A stretch of 64,000 nt of DNA from Dipylidium caninum (lineage: Eukaryota > Platyhelminthes > Cestoda > Cyclophyllidea > Dipylidiidae), in the NCBI GenBank assembly GCA_017562135.1, contig QEYB01001046.1:4278001-4342000 (forward strand), read 5' to 3'. Shown here in pieces: positions 41,201 through 56,967 of this stretch. A model generated the notes under the pieces. The model saw nothing but the letters and a program-made list of their open reading frames with translations, ran no database searches and was not told where the DNA came from. Within the stretch, counting starts at the first letter, position 1. Every line of letters starts with the position of its first letter. A program made the translations under genes and the position numbers.

Positions 41201-44200
41201 ACTATGGATATGCTCCCACCATTGCCTTTTTCGTAGTCTTTACGAGTTCCTCAAGTTACCCCTTACGCATCCACATAAATTAGCGTCGTATTATGCGCTA
41301 TTGCGAGTTGCACAATGACTCCCGAGGTTAGCGAAGCCGTCAGAAATGTTTACCTCCAAAAAGTGCGGCTTAGAAATTGGGCCTCCACCTCTCCCTTGTA
41401 GAGACCTACTGTTGAGTCGCAGCGGAGGGCAGCTCGGAGTTGACTCAATTCTTATGCGGAATAGTGTGATTTTAACTCATCGAGATAAAACGGTTAATTA
41501 AACCTCGGATAATGAAAGTAAAACCACTTTATGCATATCACCAAAATTATCACGGAGGGCAATCACATTGAACACCTCAAAATTCATCCAACGGCACAAG
41601 ACCCTCGCATTCGTTGGCTGGCTTTTTCCCGCTCTTCCTGACCGTTGGCCGTATATCGACGTAGTGGGTTATGCGACCACCTCGAATGCTTTACACTCAG
41701 AGTAGGACAATGAATGCATCGAATGGAAGGTTGTAATTATCTAAAAACAGATTTCCATTGTCCGCATACACCTATGTACCTTGGGATCAATTGATACGAA
41801 GAGTTTCCCAAAATTATATACCCTGCTAGTTACAGATCAGGTGAGTAGGGGTTTTAGAAAGGGTAATAATGTCACTCAAAATGCCGAAACAACGGATTTT
41901 GCTGATACGACTTAGGATTGAGGAAACGTGGAGAGGGTGCTATTGGGGTTATTTCTGAAGAGCTTCAAGTCAAGTTTACGCATTTGCGTCATACCACCAG
42001 GGTTATAAGAAAGTTTCGACGAGTAGGGGGATTTAATACACCCATGGCCACAAGTAAAAGAGTGGCCTTATTTGAATGGAAACCACCTCAACTCATAGAG
42101 GGAGAATTAAACACAAGCAGTATTATTGCCTACACCATGGAAGCTCAGATTATCGAGGACACTGTTTGTTTAAGGAACAGGGTTTTGAAAAGAGAACTCT
42201 AATTGGAGTTCATTCATTTCTTCAAACAAAATTTTGATGGATGGTCACATATTTAAATAAGACAAGCCAAAAGCCGCCTCGCCCCGCCAGCTTCTCGTAG
42301 TCCACATTTATTAGCCGGGCGAATGTTGCCTGCCCAACATTGTCCGGAGCAAACGCTGGCCTGCACGAGTGCAGTACGGTTACAAAGCAACTAGCTCGAC
42401 AGCCTGATGATTTCGGCCCAACCAAGTCTGCAAAGTGGGAATGATTAGAGTTTCCTTTTTCAACATAGATCCGCATAAGATCAACAAACTGCCAACCTTG
42501 TACAATATGCCCAGAGATGAGGACTTTATTTCCTCGTCTTTATACTGCTCCTAAATTCTCCTATCCTAACAATCATAAATAGCTAATTTTACCCTTTTCC
42601 TTCAGTTCGCTACTTATTTACGAAATCTGGAGTTCAAATAGAATTAAATTTTGAAGAAAGTTGCGCCAATTTGACGGGTTTATGACGCATTATAAAAGAC
42701 AATGAAGAAAAATGGCCACTTAATCGAGTATACCCTGGGGGGAACTCCTCCGCGAAAGCGATTCTGACCAGGTACGCAATTGTAACAGGCCCTCCGGATA
42801 GCCTCATCAAATCGCAATTAGTAATTCTTTGAATCATTTCTTACCTGAAGATTAATCTAAACGCTGAGTTTAAAAAAATAGACAAACAAAGCGCATCAGT
42901 GAATTCAGGTGCTCCGCTCATTAAAGGAAGAAGCTATCGTCAACGTAGTGAAACAATATCCTGAACAGAGTCGCCTGCGAACTTAATTGAGTTTGCAAAT
43001 AAAAATTATTCACATTCCCTACTTCCTAATGACTTGGCTATTTGGATTGAGCGGTAGAGGAAGAAAAGGCATTTCACCGTCATTTAATGGACATAAAATA
43101 ACACTTAAAAAGCGGTACCCATAAAATGAATAAAATAGTGTGAGTACACATTTACAGTTAGTGAGAATGACCTGTATTAAAGTAAAGTGGACTTTGATAT
43201 ACGTAAAAATGATTTCCATCCCGCAAGGGGCGTGGAAACGCGATCGGAGCACCGTTCACCCGAAGGTACGTGCAAAGGTACTCTCTTATTTGCATGTAGG
43301 ATCAACTACCATGAAATCCTATCTGGGAATATTCTGCCTCTTCTCAACCTACCTTGACACTCTGTTCTGCAATTTGACACTGCTTCATGCCTTTTGTTCC
43401 GGTCTCGACTCTTATCTTCGACTCTGTCATGAAAGAAAGAACCCTGAACCCGTTAATCTAAAGTCTGGAAGGCAAGCGGTGCTCTGGTTCAAAATCAGTA
43501 CGCCGTGGTTCGTTTCCGGCCTCTTGGCTATTGTCCAGCTCGCCGTAAGTGACCGTGGCATGGCCCATCTCTCGGAGGACTGTCAACGTCATTTCCTTCC
43601 TTCATTCACTAGCCAACTGGAAGCCACGTGCATAGTCACCGACCCAAATTTCCTCATTTTGCGTACTTCAGTCGCATACGCGCTACCCCTTCTCGGTTGC
43701 CTCATTCTCACGGGTCTCCAAGTGCGTTGCCTGCGCCGACTAAGATTTGTCCCACCGGAATACTCTCTAGGACCGCGCATTGAGGCATCCATTCGAAGAG
43801 ATGTTACTTTGGAGACCCTCGCTCCGCTTACAGACGCAGTAAAACCAAGTTCTCCCTGCAGCTACGAAACGGGTTACGAGTGTCCCAGGCATGGCAGAAT
43901 TGGCTGTGATAGTGAGATAACGACGTTGCACGACCTTTGCGATGTGGATCAGGAAAAATACTTCACAAATAACACATCCAGCGCAATTTCGACAAACCGC
44001 TGGTTCCAGACATACCGCGGAGAGCAAATGGCGGTGGCGGTTAACATGGTCTCATGTATCGTCGCGGTCGGAGTCTGGTCACCGCTCATTCTTTCTAGCC
44101 TGGCTTACGGTCTGTGTCATACGCCAGAGAGTACACGCTTCGTGAAACAGCCGTTGTACCACATTCCGGGCCTCGATCTCTCAAAATATCGTCCCACGAG

Positions 44201-44438
44201 GTGTTTCATCCATGTGGCTGCATCGCGTTTGGCGGACTTCCGGTGGTGGGTATACGCTAGTACGGGGATGCTTCTACCAACAGCCCTGCTTCTGATGGAC
44301 AGAGGCCTCAGGAGAGCGTGTTGGCAATCTCTCGGTTTGAAGACGTCTCTACCTGGAGGGAGAAAAACCCTTCAACGATGTGAAGTGGTCGACCTCAATG
44401 CAGTAGACCAACTCGTGTCGAATAGTGCCGAGCAATGA
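38248..44438 (+). CDS. Orphan rhodopsin-like GPCR, divergent motifs, two exons
   Basis: Exon 1 (38248-38590) ends in phase 1 at LLFG. Exon 2 (43300-44438) starts after CATGTAG and completes that codon. Together they encode 493 residues. A leader (residues 11-24, poly-Leu) comes first, then seven membrane segments: TM1 48-75 (Asn66 at 1.50), TM2 84-113, TM3 126-150, TM4 176-197, TM5 233-256, TM6 358-385 and TM7 428-447. Class A landmarks present are Cys127 (3.25), exactly 24 residues before Asp151, a partner Cys225 in ECL2, Pro244 (5.50) and Trp374-Ser-Pro376 (CWxP position). Landmarks missing: DRY is DSY, NPxxY is LPTAL, and no Asp is seen at 2.50. Loop 3 is long (about 100 residues). The basic helix-8-like end is DRGLRRACWQSL. 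The ligand is unknown. The family match rests on topology and spacing, not a named orthologue. AATAAA lies at 44817. Confidence 0.8.
38591..43299 (+). other. 4.7 kb GPCR intron between TM2 and TM3
   Basis: The donor is TTTTCG|GTTAGT and the acceptor CTCTTATTTGCATGTAG. A hydrophobic open stretch at about 39380-39615 is discussed under findings. Otherwise I see nothing coding in it. Confidence 0.6.
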
Positions 44439-49058: not shown

Positions 49059-51966
49059 TCACTTGGCCGCCCTGCCAGTTTCTGAGACTGCGTACTCGCT
49101 GGTCTGTTGTGAGGGTGAGTGGCGTCCACCAGGACAATTCGCACCACGTAAGGCCGCTGCAGCTCTAGCCTGGACCAAGACCGCACCAGAACTCATTAGC
49201 AGGGATTCTATATTTTCATTTCTTTTGCCAAGAAGACGCAGAATTGCCTTCAGCTCAGCAACGATAGCATCCAGCGCTTCAATTTCCTTTCGGTTCATAA
49301 TTGCTGGATTTAGATGGGGCTTCAACTGTCCAAGCAGATGAATCCTAAACTTAATTGGTACATGGAAGCCTCCACTGTCGCTTGTTGAAAGAAGATCAAG
49401 TGCTGTGCGAATAATTGCACTAGCATCATCAGCATCGAGCAGTCGGCATTGAAACTCAGCGTATCGTGAAATAAATGCAAATTCGGGAGAGGCTATCAAC
49501 GGTGTGAACCATGAACGAGTTGGTTGAGATGTTCCTGGATCTCCACTTCCGAAGAGACACAGAACTATGTTGGCTACTTCCTTGACTGCATTCCAAGCGC
49601 CTCCGACAATAGATTCATTTGAAATACTGTGCGTGAGGACGCGAGTGATTATATGGGCAATCAACTGAATGTCTTGTGCTACTATTGCCCATCCCAAGGC
49701 TGAGCAGGTACCGCCAATGTCGGGGATGCAAAAAGTAGAGGGCGATAGAGATAGTGAAGAACGAGCCTTAACACGCGCGATCTCATGAATGACCTCAGGG
49801 AGTTGATGTCTTTTTGCCAACTGAATCAACTGCAGATAAACAAAATTTGCCACAAGTCGTTATGTAAATCACCACAAAAAAACCTCCATAAAATATAACA
49901 GCAATTACGTTGTGGGTGAGACGGGTGGTGGTCGGTTTGGTTCTTTGTATAAGTGACACTTGTACGGCTCGAGCAGCGGACTGCAGCGTAGTACAGTAGT
50001 CCAAATAGCCCAGAGCTATGCTAAGAAGAGTTGGATCGGCGGCCAGACTCTCTGCATATCTCATTAGAAAGAAGTCTGGCATGGTTGAGGCCACGCTTAT
50101 CATTTTGGATGGTTTTTCACCTAATTTAAGTAGAGAAAATTGCGAAATAGCTAGATCCACGAAAACTTGCCAAACAAAACGGGTCTTAGGATTTACGATA
50201 ATCATTAATGATACCAAGGGAATACCAGCCGACTAAAAACTGAAGCGAGCAAATAAAAAAACATTCAACCAAAATGCATAAAAGGTAAATCTGAGAGAAA
50301 AATATAAGATCACAAGCACGGGTTACTGTTTTCAATGTTTTCCAACTTCAAGCTGAGACGTTCTGGAGAGGATTGCGCCGAATATGTATTCAAAAAGAGA
50401 TCCCGGGAGAAGATGCTTCACTAGATTGGAAAAATGGGCAACCATCCACCAGTTATTAAATCTTTCGCTCAGGGTAAATACCAGTGAAAGAATGTCTTCT
50501 GTAAAGATGTGCTTGATCACTTGGTCTACGATCTAAATTACAGAATATCAAATGCTAGGCGAACAAGAAAATATGTTAACATAGTCAAATATGATTTTAA
50601 AGACTTAAAAATTAACCAAGCAAAAAGAATAAATTTAAGATAATTCAAATTATTTAATCAATTGTTAATATCATACTGCCGAAAGAGAATGACTTTCCGA
50701 AGGTTCATCTGAATCTATACGGAATTTGGACTTGAACTGCGTCAACGCGCCGCAAAGTGACGAAGTATCAACGAAATGCTGTGTGTAGAATAGCCACGCA
50801 ACGAATTGAAAATACCAAGTTCCGCACACATCAATAACTCGTGGATCGTTCCAACAGTCATGGCGGCCAGCCAAAATTGAAAGAATTAGAATAGAGTACT
50901 CCACATCAATATCTTTTGATTGTGGATAATCTCTGAGCACCTCTATTAGCCGCACATTACAAACATTTTGCCAATGATGCCACATCTTTTCAAAAGAGCT
51001 ACTACTTGGCCAGTTATCTATACGTAAGAGATAATATAACGGTAGAAAGACTCGACACTTACTTGCAGAATCGATAGAACATGATTCTTCAATTGGCATT
51101 GCAATCAAAAGTTGACGAATATCTCGCAAGAGATGAGAATTGGCTCGAGCGTGCGATGCCAAAAGGGCGGAGAGTTCAATCGAGCGAGCTTGTGTTAATA
51201 ATGCCAAAGCAGTTGACCAAAATAACTGACCAGCATCGCCACTTTCCTTGGATAGGATTTCAGTCGACTCGGATTTTCCGAGGAGGTTACGGGCCAAGTT
51301 AATCGCTTCTTGAGATTGCACAAAATACCACTCGGTAAGAGCAGAAACAAGCTTCCCAGGATCGAGGTTCTTCAAGTACGAAAAGGATAAATTGAGTACA
51401 AATCCGTGAATTACAGCAAGACAAGAGCAAATACAAAGGAACAAACCTGGAAGAGGACGACTTCGGCTAGATGCCACAACAAATCGTATGCTTTAACGAG
51501 ATCCGCGTCGGCAGAAAAGGATGCGAATTTTTCACTGGGCATGCTATCATAGACACCTAGAAGGCAATTCACTCACAATAAAAACTAACTAAGAAATTCA
51601 TATATTTCCTGATGACACATAGCTAGTACCGCGCGATACTGATGACTCAACCTTATGAGACTGACAGAATAAATGATAAAACACAACTTACTCTGATGCA
51701 TCTCTGCATATTTGGGAAACGCGAAAGATATCTGACAAACAGGAGAACACGATAAATAAATAAAAAAATTAACCATAAGATGAGCGAATAAGCCGTTGTA
51801 AAAACACGTTCTTTTTGGCCGATGCAAAATACTGGAGTTCGTACAATGCTTCGTTATGGGTTGAACTCGAAAATCTTTCTGATTTCTGGAAGACTGTAAT
51901 CTTTTGCGAAGCAGACCATGCGAAATTCAGTTTCCCCGCCAGGGCAACAGAACAAGTAACATCCAT
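49059..51966 (-). CDS. NUP85: Nucleoporin Nup85 (Y-complex scaffold), about 7 exons
   Basis: Certain exons: 51369-50677, 50532-50347, 50232-49909 and 49829-49059, all phase 0. Upstream are 51966 to about 51808 or 51774, 51731-51692 and 51556-51447. Matches to human Nup85 run in order: KLNFAWSASQKITVF for YFDWGPGEMLV; AYDLLWHLAEVVLF for AMELIWNLCEILFI; GQLFWSTALALLTQARSIELSALL for the FW-VTILVLQGRLDEA helix pair; MWHHWQNVC for KWQHWHEEC; FNNWWMVAHFSNLVKH for LSNWWFVAHLTDLLDH; MRYAESLAADPTLLSIALGYLDYC for [24 protein letters not shown]. The C-terminal helical repeats follow (GTCSALGWAIVAQD, FISRYAEF). It is an alpha-solenoid subunit of the Nup107-160 Y complex of the nuclear pore. Length is about 760 residues (human 656); the extra sequence is mainly a low-similarity tail ending SETGRAAK. 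The first three exon junctions are ambiguous: two phase-consistent solutions exist. Confidence 0.93.
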
Positions 51967-52399
51967 TCCACACCGCGAACACTCCCGCTATAGTGAGTAT
52001 AAGGACAAATGAGGTTTTCATTCGCCAAGGCCACGCAGACGATACTATTCAATGCCGAGGATGCTTGCACTAGACAATGCAATATATAAAAGCAATTATT
52101 TACAAGCGGCAAGAACATGCCTTCGATAAACAGAGGATTAGTGTTGAACAATTGTGACCGTAACTATTTAGGGATCGATTGTTCTTAATTCCTCACGAAC
52201 ATTACAGAGAGGATTTATCTGGGATAATGGTTCGAAAAATATAGGGAAATGCAGCTACAAAGTTGTGACTTGGGTTTGATAATTGGTTGGGGGATGGTTC
52301 TGTTAGCGATCTTTTAAATAAGAGTTCTTAATTATATTTACTTGTGCCTGACGTATTGGCGTTGAGTGACTTCATTTAACACCCCCGCTCGAATTAGGC
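51967..52399. promoter_or_regulatory. Probable bidirectional promoter, NUP85 (-) / POLR1C (+)
   Basis: Only 433 bp separate the two divergent start codons, so the promoters of both housekeeping genes must lie here unless 5' UTRs extend further. Acceptor-like AG sites lie close to both starts (CACTATAG 19 nt before the NUP85 ATG; CGAATTAG 2 nt before the POLR1C ATG). I cannot name a core promoter element. Confidence 0.5.
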
Positions 52400-53679
52400 A
52401 TGGTCACCAATGCCGAACCCTTTATTAAAGTTGAGCAGCATGGCTTATCATTCTTTCCATCGGCACCCAAAAGGTGGGATGTCGACGTATTTGTAGACGA
52501 ATTTCAGACCATCGTGACATTACTCACTGATGAGACGATCGAGTTTGACTTGATTAACGTTGACTGTACTTTTGCAAACGCCATTCGCCGAATTCTTATG
52601 GCCGAGGTTCCTTCATTCGCTATTGATCGGATCTATTTGCACCAGAATACTTCCGTTATCTCTGACGAGACCTTTTGCCACCGCTTGGGTCTAGTACCCT
52701 TAAATGTAGACCCCGAACAATTTGCATTTTGCTCAGGCGATTTGCCCGACTCCGATGACATTGATGGATTCGATCCGAATAGCCATCTGATATTTGATCT
52801 AAAGATAAAAGTTGACCGCTCTTTCTATAAAGGAAATGAAGATGGTGAATGCAAAGAAACCTTCCACCCTTGCCCTCTGTACAGGTAAGTTTTGCCCGAT
52901 TTAACCAGTCGCGTCTAAATACCTTTACCCTTGTCTATAATTAAGCTTTCCTTAAATTGATGTATATATGCATTTTAGTTCTAGTCTTATTTGGGTACCA
53001 CTACCTGGTCAAGAAAGTGCTTTCAAAGGCGGAAATTCTTTTCAACCTGCTCCTGTTAGCAAAAAGATTCTCCTCAATAAACTAGCTCTCGGTGACGAAA
53101 TTATCGCGCGTTGTCTTGCCGTTAAGGGTATCGGCCGTGACCATTCGAAATTCTCCCCTGTTTCGGGTGCCTTTTATAGACTTCTTCCATCAATCGAAAT
53201 TACGGAAACAGTACGCGGTGAGCTTGCAAAGAAGTTACAGAAGAGTTTTGCCAAAGGAGTTATTAGTGTATGTTCCTTCGATGGAAAACTTACTTACTGC
53301 CTCGATTTTCATATCCACAAACTCCTCTATTTCCGTAACGAACAAGAAAACTTACTTTTATGAATTCAAGGTTGATCCCTCAACACAGGTGGCAAGTGTA
53401 GCAAATGCAAGGTTAGACAATGGATCTAGGGAACACCTTAGACATACAGAATTGGCCAACATTGTGCGCGTATCTCTAAATCCGCGTCATTTTATTTTCA
53501 CCGTGGAAACCGTTGCTCCTGGTTACCGTTCGCCGGGCACGCTTGTCAAGTGTGCCATTGACGTGATGCTTTCGAAATGCGCTTATTATCTTACTATCGT
53601 CGACAAACCGGGTTTCGCTACCAATCCAGTTAGTGGCTTGGATGATGACATTGGCATGGAAGAATTAGTCGTACGTTAA
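52400..53679 (+). CDS. POLR1C: RNA polymerase I and III subunit RPAC1 (AC40)
   Basis: Exons are 52400-52884, 52979-53267 and 53371-53679; all phases agree (360 residues). The alpha-like signature is complete: NVDCTFANAIRRILMAEVPS, AIDRIYLHQNTSVISDETF and HRLGLVPLNVDPEQF. Later blocks are WVPLPGQ, VKGIGRDHSKFSPVSGAFYRLLP, VASVANARLD and NPRHFIFTVET. RPAC1 pairs with RPAC2 to form the heterodimer that nucleates Pol I and Pol III assembly in place of the bacterial alpha dimer. Relative to human the C-terminus is about 20 residues longer, acidic, and ends DDDIGMEELVVR. The last codons contain a consensus-like donor (GTC|GTACGT at 53671) whose use would bypass the stop; see findings. An AG acceptor lies two bases before the ATG, as expected for a trans-spliced or 5'-UTR-spliced message. 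Confidence 0.96.
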
Positions 53680-53963
53680 TATATAATGTTTTAAACTTTT
53701 TTGTACAAGTTGTTATTTTTGGGAATCTATTTAGGTTTGTTTTGAAGTCTTTCAGCAGGTAGGCTTGCGAGAAGTTCGACATTTGATTTGCTAATTCACT
53801 CGGTACAATTGTTGAATTATCGGTTGACAAATTAAAATATAAGATTCTTTTAGGAGGTTTCGCCTCTTGGTTTGAACGTGGAACTCTTGCTTTTGTGAAT
53901 TTGCTGAACCATCGCGTTTTACGGGTGATTTTTGTCTTGCTCCGTTCATAGGGCGAGGAATCT
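53680..53963 (+). other. 284-bp POLR1C-POLR1D interval
   Basis: It has no AATAAA in the sense direction (only an ATTAAA variant near 53831). It ends in a strong acceptor, GATTTTTGTCTTGC...TTCATAG, at 53951, 12 nt before the POLR1D ATG. It can be an operon spacer or an intron. Confidence 0.7.
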
Positions 53964-54832
53964 ATGGGCGCATCAGTAAACGGTCGCCTAGTTGGTCTAG
54001 ACGTCGTATTTGTCTCCAACGATTTGCGTAGAGCGACGTTTCGTTTCACAGGCGAAGACCACACTCTTGGAGCTGCTCTTCGCTACTGCATACTTCGCAG
54101 GTACGTAGTTTTGACGGCAAATTGTTCGGCTTCGGTTGATGTGAGCTATGATCATACGACTATATATTTTTAATAATGCAGCATATTCATTAAATGGTTT
54201 AAGAAATGCGGTATCTTGGGTTTTTCCAGCATTTTTTTAATTAAAATCGGCAGTCGGTATGGCTGCTGTGTGCCTTTGCGCGATCTTTTATCGGGTAATC
54301 AAATCCGAAATTTATGTATCCCGTGATGCCCTTATGATACTCGTTTTAAACCATAAAAGCGCTCTCGTTACCACCATGCACAATTAAACTTCAATTGTAG
54401 AAATTTCCATGCATTCAACTGAACTATCCATCGTTGGTTTGGTGTTCACTCTACCTCTTAGATTTAGATAAGTTGAAATATGTACGTAACCACGATATAT
54501 AACGCTCTTCGGCGTCATCTTATAATTGAATCAATTTTCCTTCGTATGCTTTAGCGAAAAGGTCAAGCTTTGTGGATACTGTCAACCGCATCCCTTAGAG
54601 GATTCTATAACTTTTGAAATTCACAGCAAAGGTAATTGTTCATGTGTGCAATTTGTGTGGAACTTGAAATTTTTCTTTACTATTCTAAACTTTTGTAGAC
54701 GAAATGGCTGTGACAGTACTCCGTAACGGCTTGTACTGCCTTCGCGCATGTTTCGAACACATAAAGCGAAAATTCAAATCAGCGCTTAAGAAAATTCAAA
54801 AACGAACCTTTAATTCTTTGTCGTCCGACTGA
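53964..54832 (+). CDS. POLR1D: RNA polymerase I and III subunit RPAC2 (AC19)
   Basis: Exons are 53964-54100, 54555-54631 and 54699-54832; phases 2 and 1 match, giving 115 residues. Conserved blocks are ATFRFTGEDHTLGAALRYCI (human [20 protein letters not shown]), KLCGYCQPHPLEDSITFEIHSKG (human [22 protein letters not shown]), and the amphipathic helix VLRNGLYCLRACFEHIKRKFKSALK. It is the small alpha-like partner of RPAC1 in Pol I and Pol III. The start at 53964 is the first ATG after an acceptor at 53951. The four codons between acceptor and ATG (GEES) are open and in frame. The gene follows POLR1C on the same strand at 284 bp, so co-transcription is likely. Confidence 0.93.
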
Positions 54833-56967
54833 ATTTTTGTCCTTATAATGCACACTTACCCTTTGTCTACTAAATTTCTACCGCTTCTCAGCCCCAGGTG
54901 TCATTTTGGGTTTTCACCTTGGTTACTGAAATTAATGGACTAGAGGAAACCAAGTAGTGGGATTGCTAATGAGTCGAAATATTATTATCCTGAGTGAAAG
55001 GATGGTCTTACGTAAAAGTTGGAATCCTTGGAGGACGGGAACAAGAATTCGTCGAACGTGGTTCTTTTCATGATGGGCGTTGGCTGCTTAGCGGTTTTCA
55101 GTAGTGTTTTCTCCGAATTCAAGGCGGTCCGACGCGCTGATAACCTTCGTTGGGGGTCTTTTGTGCACTTATGGGCAACTCAGATACGAAACGGCCTAGT
55201 TGGGGGGGGGGGGGGGCAGCTACGAGAAGCTGGAGGAAGCCATCATTTGACTTAGCTGGATCGACAGCTTCAGTGTTGAAGTGCTGTTTGCCCACACGTG
55301 AGCGCCTTCACTTCTGACAGCTCAAGTGGTGGGTGTGTCCGCTTTCGGGATTATGGTTTCATCGTCTAGACGGCCAAGCTTGTGCTCGCCCTCTACGCCA
55401 GTAATAGAGGTTTTCACCTCAAATATGTGGTCACAAATAAGGATGCAAATCGTAGGTGCTGCGTAAAAGCATCATTTTACTTTTACGCCACGCGTGACAT
55501 TGGACTGAAGGCGGCGCAAATGTCGGAGTCTTGGCTTATGAAAACAGCGGCTCAACCAGAGGTTGTGATTGGCGTTTGTCGAGTCGGACATGAGTAGCTA
55601 CCTTGCGTCTTGGCGTCATACGGTGAATACAAGGAGCGTTTAAAGTTTTCAGTATAAATTTACATGCATAATTAGTATGTTTTACTATCGCAGAGTACAA
55701 AATACATAACTAAAACAGCAGTACCGTTTCCTGGTTAAAAGATCACGTGGGCAGTGGGTTGGAAAGCCGTCAACGTTTCGCAGAGAGAAGCATTTTAGTG
55801 CAACATCTGCCCTGGGATTCGAGTATGAGCCTCATGACGGTGTGGAAACCAAACGCAAGTGAAAATGCCGAATAATCGGGAAATAATGGCGGATTTGGCA
55901 AGTTTAGATGGTCTTGGCAGGGTCAAATATTGTAGGGGTCTTTCTTTCAACGCCGAAAAATGAAGCGTAAACAACATCCACTTCAAAGAGATAGCACTTG
56001 TAGCTTTTAAAGCAGGACCGTTATTTCTTGCGTCTTAATGCATGGTTCCTGGTCACGGCTGCTAACCAAATGAGTTTGATCTCTTATGCCAATAAATTTT
56101 ATTTTAATTCTCTTTGAACTCCTGGCCGTTTTGGAGTCTTGACTGTGGCCACCACCACAGTAGGATTACGGTGGAACAGAACCGAAATAGAGGCGAATGT
56201 GGAGTTACTACACGAAATATTTACTGACAGACGATAATTGCAATTAGGAGGAAACGCAATACTTCGAGCCACAGCTCGGAAAGTGCGTTTTAGACATAAA
56301 AAGCCCCCGGATAATTACTTACTGAGTGACAGTATCATGTGAATTCATGATTGATAGTTAACATTGAATAACAACTCGGTGTAAGACAGTTGTCACGCTA
56401 GCGTATGAATGGAGTAAACAGTGGAGTAGAAAGCGGCTTATTTAAGCAAAATTCTACCTAAGTGGTTTACGTTTCCTAGTAAACTCCTAATTTTCGCGCC
56501 ATTTTGGCCGGTCATGATCTCATCGGTATTCTTATGTTTTGGCTTCACACCTTCAAAAATATTGTCGTGATCCCCGAAATGTTGCACATCACCCCAGGGG
56601 ATAGTAGGTCATTTCCTTGCATCCCCATTATTTCGCAAGTTAGTTTACCCGTTAAAGTTTTTATGAGTGCAAGAAATTGGTGAAATAAAGTTGTTATGTA
56701 CTCCTAGAATAAAACTCATGACAAATAACGCTAAATAAAGTGGTAACAAAGTGTTAAATTCAATGCTGTATCGCGATTGAAATAATTCCCAAAAACACGT
56801 TAACAGCAAACATTTGGCCGTGAGCGGCAGCAGAGGCAGTGGAGGGGATGCAAATTAAAAGTGGTGTCGTGGCTAATTTTGACCATAGGGACATTAGAGG
56901 GATACAAAGGGGGCGAGGGAACTAAAAGCTGGATAAAATTAACGGCCAAGTCATGTAACGCAGCTAA
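54833..56967. other. Intergenic, POLR1D (+) to zinc transporter (-), convergent
   Basis: No gene is supported. A 15-nt poly-G run lies at 55202-55216 and AATAAA at 56091. Open frames at 55.0-55.6 kb have no recognisable features. Confidence 0.5.
55202..55216. repeat. Poly-G tract
   Basis: Fifteen consecutive G on the + strand. It is unstable and assembly-error-prone. Confidence 0.9.

Follow-up and report, generated by a model that had tools for sequence, protein, structure and literature searches.

Operon candidates in flatworms have been defined as genes on one strand lying no more than 300 bp apart, with a median of 448.5 candidates per cestode genome, and the intercistronic distance in 45 pairs from S. 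mansoni has a median of 99 bp (PMC12582326). Flatworm spliced leader (SL) RNAs carry an Sm-like site, UVUUUGG, and a terminal AUG (PMC12582326), and the SLs of another tapeworm end in ATG (PMC7653826). Of three classes compared, operon acceptors showed the least cis-splicing in nearly all species, and such splicing is described as 'very rare' in all of them; flatworm operons are frequently misannotated as chimeric genes (PMC12582326).

In the window analysed here (the whole 64,000-nucleotide stretch, C296:4278001-4342000), POLR1C and POLR1D lie head to tail on the + strand with 284 bp from stop to ATG (53680-53963), as an earlier sequence-only reading had stated. That reading left the choice between an operon, a gene for one fused protein, and both isoforms. 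Judged from the DNA, the pair is probably an SL operon of two genes that yields two separate proteins, an interpretation that draws on its architecture (a gap of no more than 300 bp, a splice acceptor, SL-RNA genes in the genome and a leader AUG in frame), and the fusion half of the earlier proposal is the less likely one. Among the literature matches listed, which were a minority of all matches and did not extend to operon tables, none described POLR1C and POLR1D as an operon or a fusion.

The POLR1C and POLR1D genes and their surroundings

The two gene models and the stretch between them are as follows.

52400-53679, + strand: POLR1C (RPAC1/AC40), exons 52400-52884, 52979-53267 and 53371-53679, stop codon TAA at 53677-53679
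53680-53951, + strand: intercistronic stretch, 272 nt up to the acceptor and 284 nt up to the POLR1D ATG
53831-53836, + strand: ATTAAA, a possible but weak POLR1C poly(A) signal, the hexamer ending 115 nt before the end of the acceptor
53964-54832, + strand: POLR1D (RPAC2/AC19), exons 53964-54100, 54555-54631 and 54699-54832

The three-exon models built from the window encode products of 360 aa (39.9 kDa) for POLR1C and 115 aa (13.1 kDa) for POLR1D, and a conceptual fusion of the two would have 477 aa (53.1 kDa). Comparison with PDB chains gave RPAC1 as the best match for POLR1C (E 1.7e-61, residues 24-336 of 360 aligned) and RPAC2 for POLR1D (E 7e-15, residues 18-103 of 115 aligned); both proteins are closest to the Pol I/III subunits, the best Pol II relatives among the chains scoring far lower. 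The dimerisation domains of both subunits exceed their Pfam cut-offs (RNA_pol_L at 58.3 bits in POLR1C; RNA_pol_L_2 with E 4.3e-20 in POLR1D), whereas the POLR1C insert domain, RNA_pol_A_bac, reaches 20 bits where its cut-off requires 33.9. According to the PDB alignments, each subunit has its entire conserved core by itself. POLR1C extends 24 residues (337-360) past the last aligned residue, compared with 5 in the human chain.

Searches of the tapeworm's own genome (106 Mb, 920 contigs) scored the best candidates only, and all three matches to POLR1D fell within the POLR1C-POLR1D locus. The frame of POLR1C exon 1 matched its own locus and one place on contig C533 (45% identity, query residues 46-114), read by eye as RPB3. 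RPB11 was placed on contig C903 by a PDB match, and the Pol II pair is therefore not linked in the way that POLR1C and POLR1D are. These copy searches see exons singly, and the family search missed POLR1D itself, so that a divergent extra copy could escape them.

The - strand carries a NUP85-like gene (49059-51990) that is arranged head to head with POLR1C. Because this upstream neighbour is on the opposite strand, POLR1C would be the first gene of any shared transcription unit. NUP85 Pfam matches were obtained in three - strand frames (50674-51492; 49798-50232, just at the cut-off; and 49062-49859), and a PDB search with the longest of the NUP85-like frames gave no match. By eye, the first NUP85-like exons may reach approximately 51990, which would leave about 400 bp for a promoter shared with POLR1C. 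At -0.17 bits, the AG at 52397, immediately 5' of the POLR1C start codon, scores poorly as an acceptor, and an SL joined there would, by reading, set its AUG out of frame with POLR1C.

The Pfam scan covered 20 of the 121 frames of at least 85 aa in addition to POLR1C and POLR1D, and ten frames downstream of POLR1D were without a Pfam match. Neither an Rfam search of the whole window at gathering scores nor a search of the window for tRNAs returned anything. A 434-aa open frame on the + strand (43134-44438) matches the rhodopsin-family GPCRs at 27.0 bits, under the Pfam cut-off of 30.5, and has weak PDB matches to the 5-HT2C receptor. A run of 15 G is present at 55202-55216, shortly 3' of POLR1D.

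Spliced-leader RNA genes and the acceptor before POLR1D

The SL-RNA genes mark the genome as that of a flatworm, and its leader resembles the Echinococcus leader, which points to a probable cyclophyllidean tapeworm. Using the end of the Echinococcus leader as the query, 35 places were found at no more than two mismatches, compared with 21 for the reversed control, and 8 of the 35 were one identical variant located on contigs C354 and C531. A longer query showed at least nine SL-RNA loci on these two contigs, arranged in tandem with a spacing of approximately 2.6 kb. Eight of the nine have the leader CACCGTTAATCGGTCCTTACCTGCAATCTTGTATG, which in three of these copies has gained or lost a single base, together with the GTGAG donor and CAGTATTTGG; leader, AUG, GT donor and the Sm-like site TATTTGG are all retained in these eight. 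The remaining locus is 84% identical and lies outside the search pattern. The leader is roughly 35 nt long. One copy folds with a z score of -4.19 into two hairpins before the Sm-like site, inside an outer stem, and the copies fit the published description of flatworm SL RNAs given above. An Rfam search of four SL-search loci, up to an E value of 1, gave only a sub-threshold match to SCARNA7. Since tandem SL-RNA genes with all of these elements are present, the machinery for SL trans-splicing is very probably present as well. Copies of the SL-RNA repeats (L012-L014 and L016-L024, on C354 and C531) are distinguished by one-base insertions or deletions within short runs (GG/G, CC/C); these could reflect true variation or errors in a long-read consensus.

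The features at the 3' end of the gap are listed below, with a slash marking the splice site.

53930-53951, + strand: 3' splice acceptor TTTTGTCTTGCTCCGTTCATAG/GGC, the presumed SL acceptor of POLR1D, 7.77 bits
53952-53963, + strand: 12 nt encoding Gly-Glu-Glu-Ser, from the acceptor to the POLR1D ATG, the N-terminal residues if the SL AUG or a fusion junction is used

The strong acceptor that the sequence-only reading placed at 53951 (TTCATAG/GGC) was confirmed as the best-scoring one in the gap. On a matrix derived from this genome it ranks first among the 13 gap AGs listed, equals or exceeds 18 of 27 true acceptors, and only 1.6% of the 7553 AGs in the window score as high. Among the seven gap acceptors above 4 bits, 53951 alone opens into the POLR1D ATG, and when the SL was joined virtually to four acceptors, only the join at 53951 set the leader AUG in frame with POLR1D (M-GEES-MGASV). 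The acceptor ends in TCATAG and fits the published SL motif UUNYAG (PMC12582326) partially, whereas the acceptors at 53755 and 53853 are full fits.

The earlier reading had also pointed to the lack of AATAAA between the two genes, which is literally true; however, there is an ATTAAA at 53831, and the absence carries no weight. On the 3' side of POLR1D itself the first AATAAA or ATTAAA occurs only at 56091, and a missing AATAAA is for this reason uninformative. Either hexamer appears in a shuffled gap with p 0.16.

Under the operon interpretation, one pre-mRNA would start upstream of POLR1C, the POLR1C message would be cleaved and polyadenylated within the gap, perhaps after the ATTAAA at 53831, and the downstream piece would be capped by trans-splicing of the SL onto the acceptor at 53951. 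Two mRNAs would result, encoding two ordinary proteins, RPAC1 and RPAC2, that would pair in RNA polymerases I and III. Translation of POLR1D could begin at the AUG of the leader (MGEESMGASV...) or could use the ATG of the gene itself, 12 nt further on, and some cis-spliced fusion transcripts could arise as a by-product. The 284 bp on one strand fall within the 300 bp used to define flatworm operon candidates, and the 115 nt between the ATTAAA and the end of the acceptor can be set beside the 99 bp median of the S. mansoni pairs. Against this explanation, placement of the SL AUG in frame is a one-in-three event, the acceptor is a partial fit to the SL motif and the ATTAAA is weak (by the shuffled-gap comparison above), and the tail of POLR1C holds two phase-0 donors, one of them average, that an operon does not need. 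The suggestion that the arrangement ensures equal dosage of the two subunits is unsupported and is disfavoured, because expression levels of the partners in S. mansoni polycistronic pairs did not correspond (PMC5832876). If the operon is real, obligate Pol I/III partners share one transcription unit, unlike the Pol II pair with its two different contigs (C533 and C903), and the locus would offer a clear test of whether flatworm operons bring together partners or merely neighbours.

The genes could instead be two independent neighbours, with a POLR1D promoter inside the 284 bp gap and no shared pre-mRNA, the acceptor at 53951 then removing a 5'UTR intron or an outron, with or without SL addition. 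Other fair-scoring sites in the gap (acceptors at 53734, 53755 and 53853; donors at 53735 and 53759) would suit a 5'UTR intron, and single genes in flatworms also receive the SL, with complex 5'UTR splicing (PMC12582326). A head-to-tail arrangement at 284 bp is nevertheless the published operon pattern, and independence of the two genes is considered rather unlikely.

Donor sites in the POLR1C tail and the case for a fused protein

Two candidate donors precede the POLR1C stop codon, both in phase 0.

53629-53634, + strand: second candidate donor CCA/GTTAGT, inside the last POLR1C exon, 6.91 bits
53671-53676, + strand: candidate cis donor GTC/GTACGT, overlapping the last POLR1C codons, 6.25 bits

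The donor at 53671 was the one put forward by the sequence-only reading as a good donor. It is present and in phase 0, and 'good' is a fair description, although it is average for the introns of this genome. Its likeness to the first donor of POLR1D, described as the same hexamer, holds for the intron side; the exon side is GTC instead of CAG. The duplex with U1 reaches only -1.5 kcal/mol, a value at which 71% of the GT sites in the window pair as well, compared with -9.5 for the first POLR1D donor with its identical intron hexamer. The real second intron of POLR1C is also weak by this measure (-2.6), which may therefore be ill suited to this genome, and a matrix was built from the genome's own introns.

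Thirty regions were drawn for the matrix (26 test loci; two seeds, L086 and L087; and two unused, L083 and L088). Placement of 33 introns of small-GTPase genes was attempted by profile score, with no donor letters used beyond GT/AG and with the placing profile rebuilt from its own placements; eight gave no scored join and 25 were placed, two of which were dropped because their margin was below 4 bits. The 23 that were kept make 27 introns (29-3021 nt) together with four from the locus. The small-GTPase introns (L059-L085) are as short as 29-34 nt, and their donors have a relaxed exon side. On this genome-derived matrix, 13 of the 27 true introns score no higher than the donor at 53671 and 3.2% of the 7374 GTs in the window score as high; the full matrix was applied to the candidate, whereas each true intron was left out of the matrix on which it was scored, giving a slight bias toward the candidate.

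As had been claimed, joining the donor at 53671 to the acceptor at 53951 is a phase-0 join that stays open without a stop up to the POLR1D ATG. Phase 0 fits SL trans-splicing equally well as a fusion, because the leader AUG joined at 53951 gives the identical phase. Phase-0 joins in organisms with an SL may thus stem from the leader AUG, and are not to be taken as fusions without RNA. Read-through of the POLR1C stop codon was also considered and rejected, as an in-frame TAA follows four codons later.

The chance occurrence of such donors was assessed by shuffling the codons of POLR1C, with the threshold set to the observed donor score, making all p values post hoc. Given the acceptor at 53951, the probability of at least one equally good phase-0 donor within the final 60 nt of the coding sequence is p 0.039 (post hoc), compared with p 0.019 for the final 30 nt and p 0.055 for the final 75 nt (also post hoc); for two such donors within 60 nt it is p 0.0008 (post hoc). 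Apart from fusion, we cannot explain the second donor, at 53629, otherwise than by chance, and it counts for the fusion reading.

That the tapeworm produces even some of its AC40 and AC19 as one polypeptide, with the POLR1C tail cis-spliced into the SL acceptor of POLR1D, is unlikely. As the main product, one 53 kDa chain with an acidic linker, made by splicing 53670 to 53952, is improbable. The junction has an open frame and usable splice sites, combining an average donor with a good acceptor in phase 0 and opening into POLR1D; the implied intron of 281 nt lies within the length range of the 27 introns, and the pair of phase-0 donors in the last 60 nt is rare in the codon shuffle. On the other hand, the POLR1C stop codon follows two codons past the donor, both subunit cores are complete, and U1 pairing of the donor is poor, even if that of a real POLR1C intron is also weak. 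At a per-pair donor chance of 0.039, dozens of such cases would, we infer, be expected among several hundred operon candidates. The very low rate of cis-splicing at operon acceptors (PMC12582326) speaks against a fusion too, as does the RNA-seq result that the majority of two-domain fusion models specific to helminths resemble artefacts, though these had no overlap with SL genes in a check of one species (PMC12964723). A one-chain alpha module would not be without precedent, since vaccinia Rpo35 unites features of Rpb3 and Rpb11 in one chain (PMC13374769), and a true fusion here would be a cellular counterpart of that viral protein, with a bearing on how the alpha-like heterodimer is arranged. 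An operon with a minor but regular fusion isoform, the acceptor at 53951 serving both the SL and the usable donor in the POLR1C tail, is the least probable of the explanations, as acceptors used by both cis- and trans-splicing are widespread among flatworms, but such sharing reaches its minimum at operon acceptors in nearly every species analysed (PMC12582326).

Comparison with known systems

A two-gene operon, the preferred interpretation, would resemble the described flatworm SL operons in its single strand, its gap of no more than 300 bp and its acceptor just 5' of the second cistron (PMC12582326, PMC5832876), as well as in a leader that ends in AUG, and the SL-RNA genes are in tandem here as they are in E. 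multilocularis and T. multiceps (PMC12582326). It differs from them in the partial fit of its acceptor to the SL motif and in that the pair consists of obligate partner subunits. A gene finder could easily merge this pair, as in the fused helminth gene models described (PMC12582326, PMC12964723); the difference is that the fusion here was proposed by a reader instead of an annotation. The proposed fused chain would resemble poxvirus Rpo35 (PMC13374769), which is viral, whereas the locus here consists of two genes separated by a stop codon and a gap. Both chains of the eukaryotic AC40/AC19 (POLR1C/POLR1D) heterodimer are recognisable by sequence across the conserved core, and the locus differs from that system in that the two genes adjoin.
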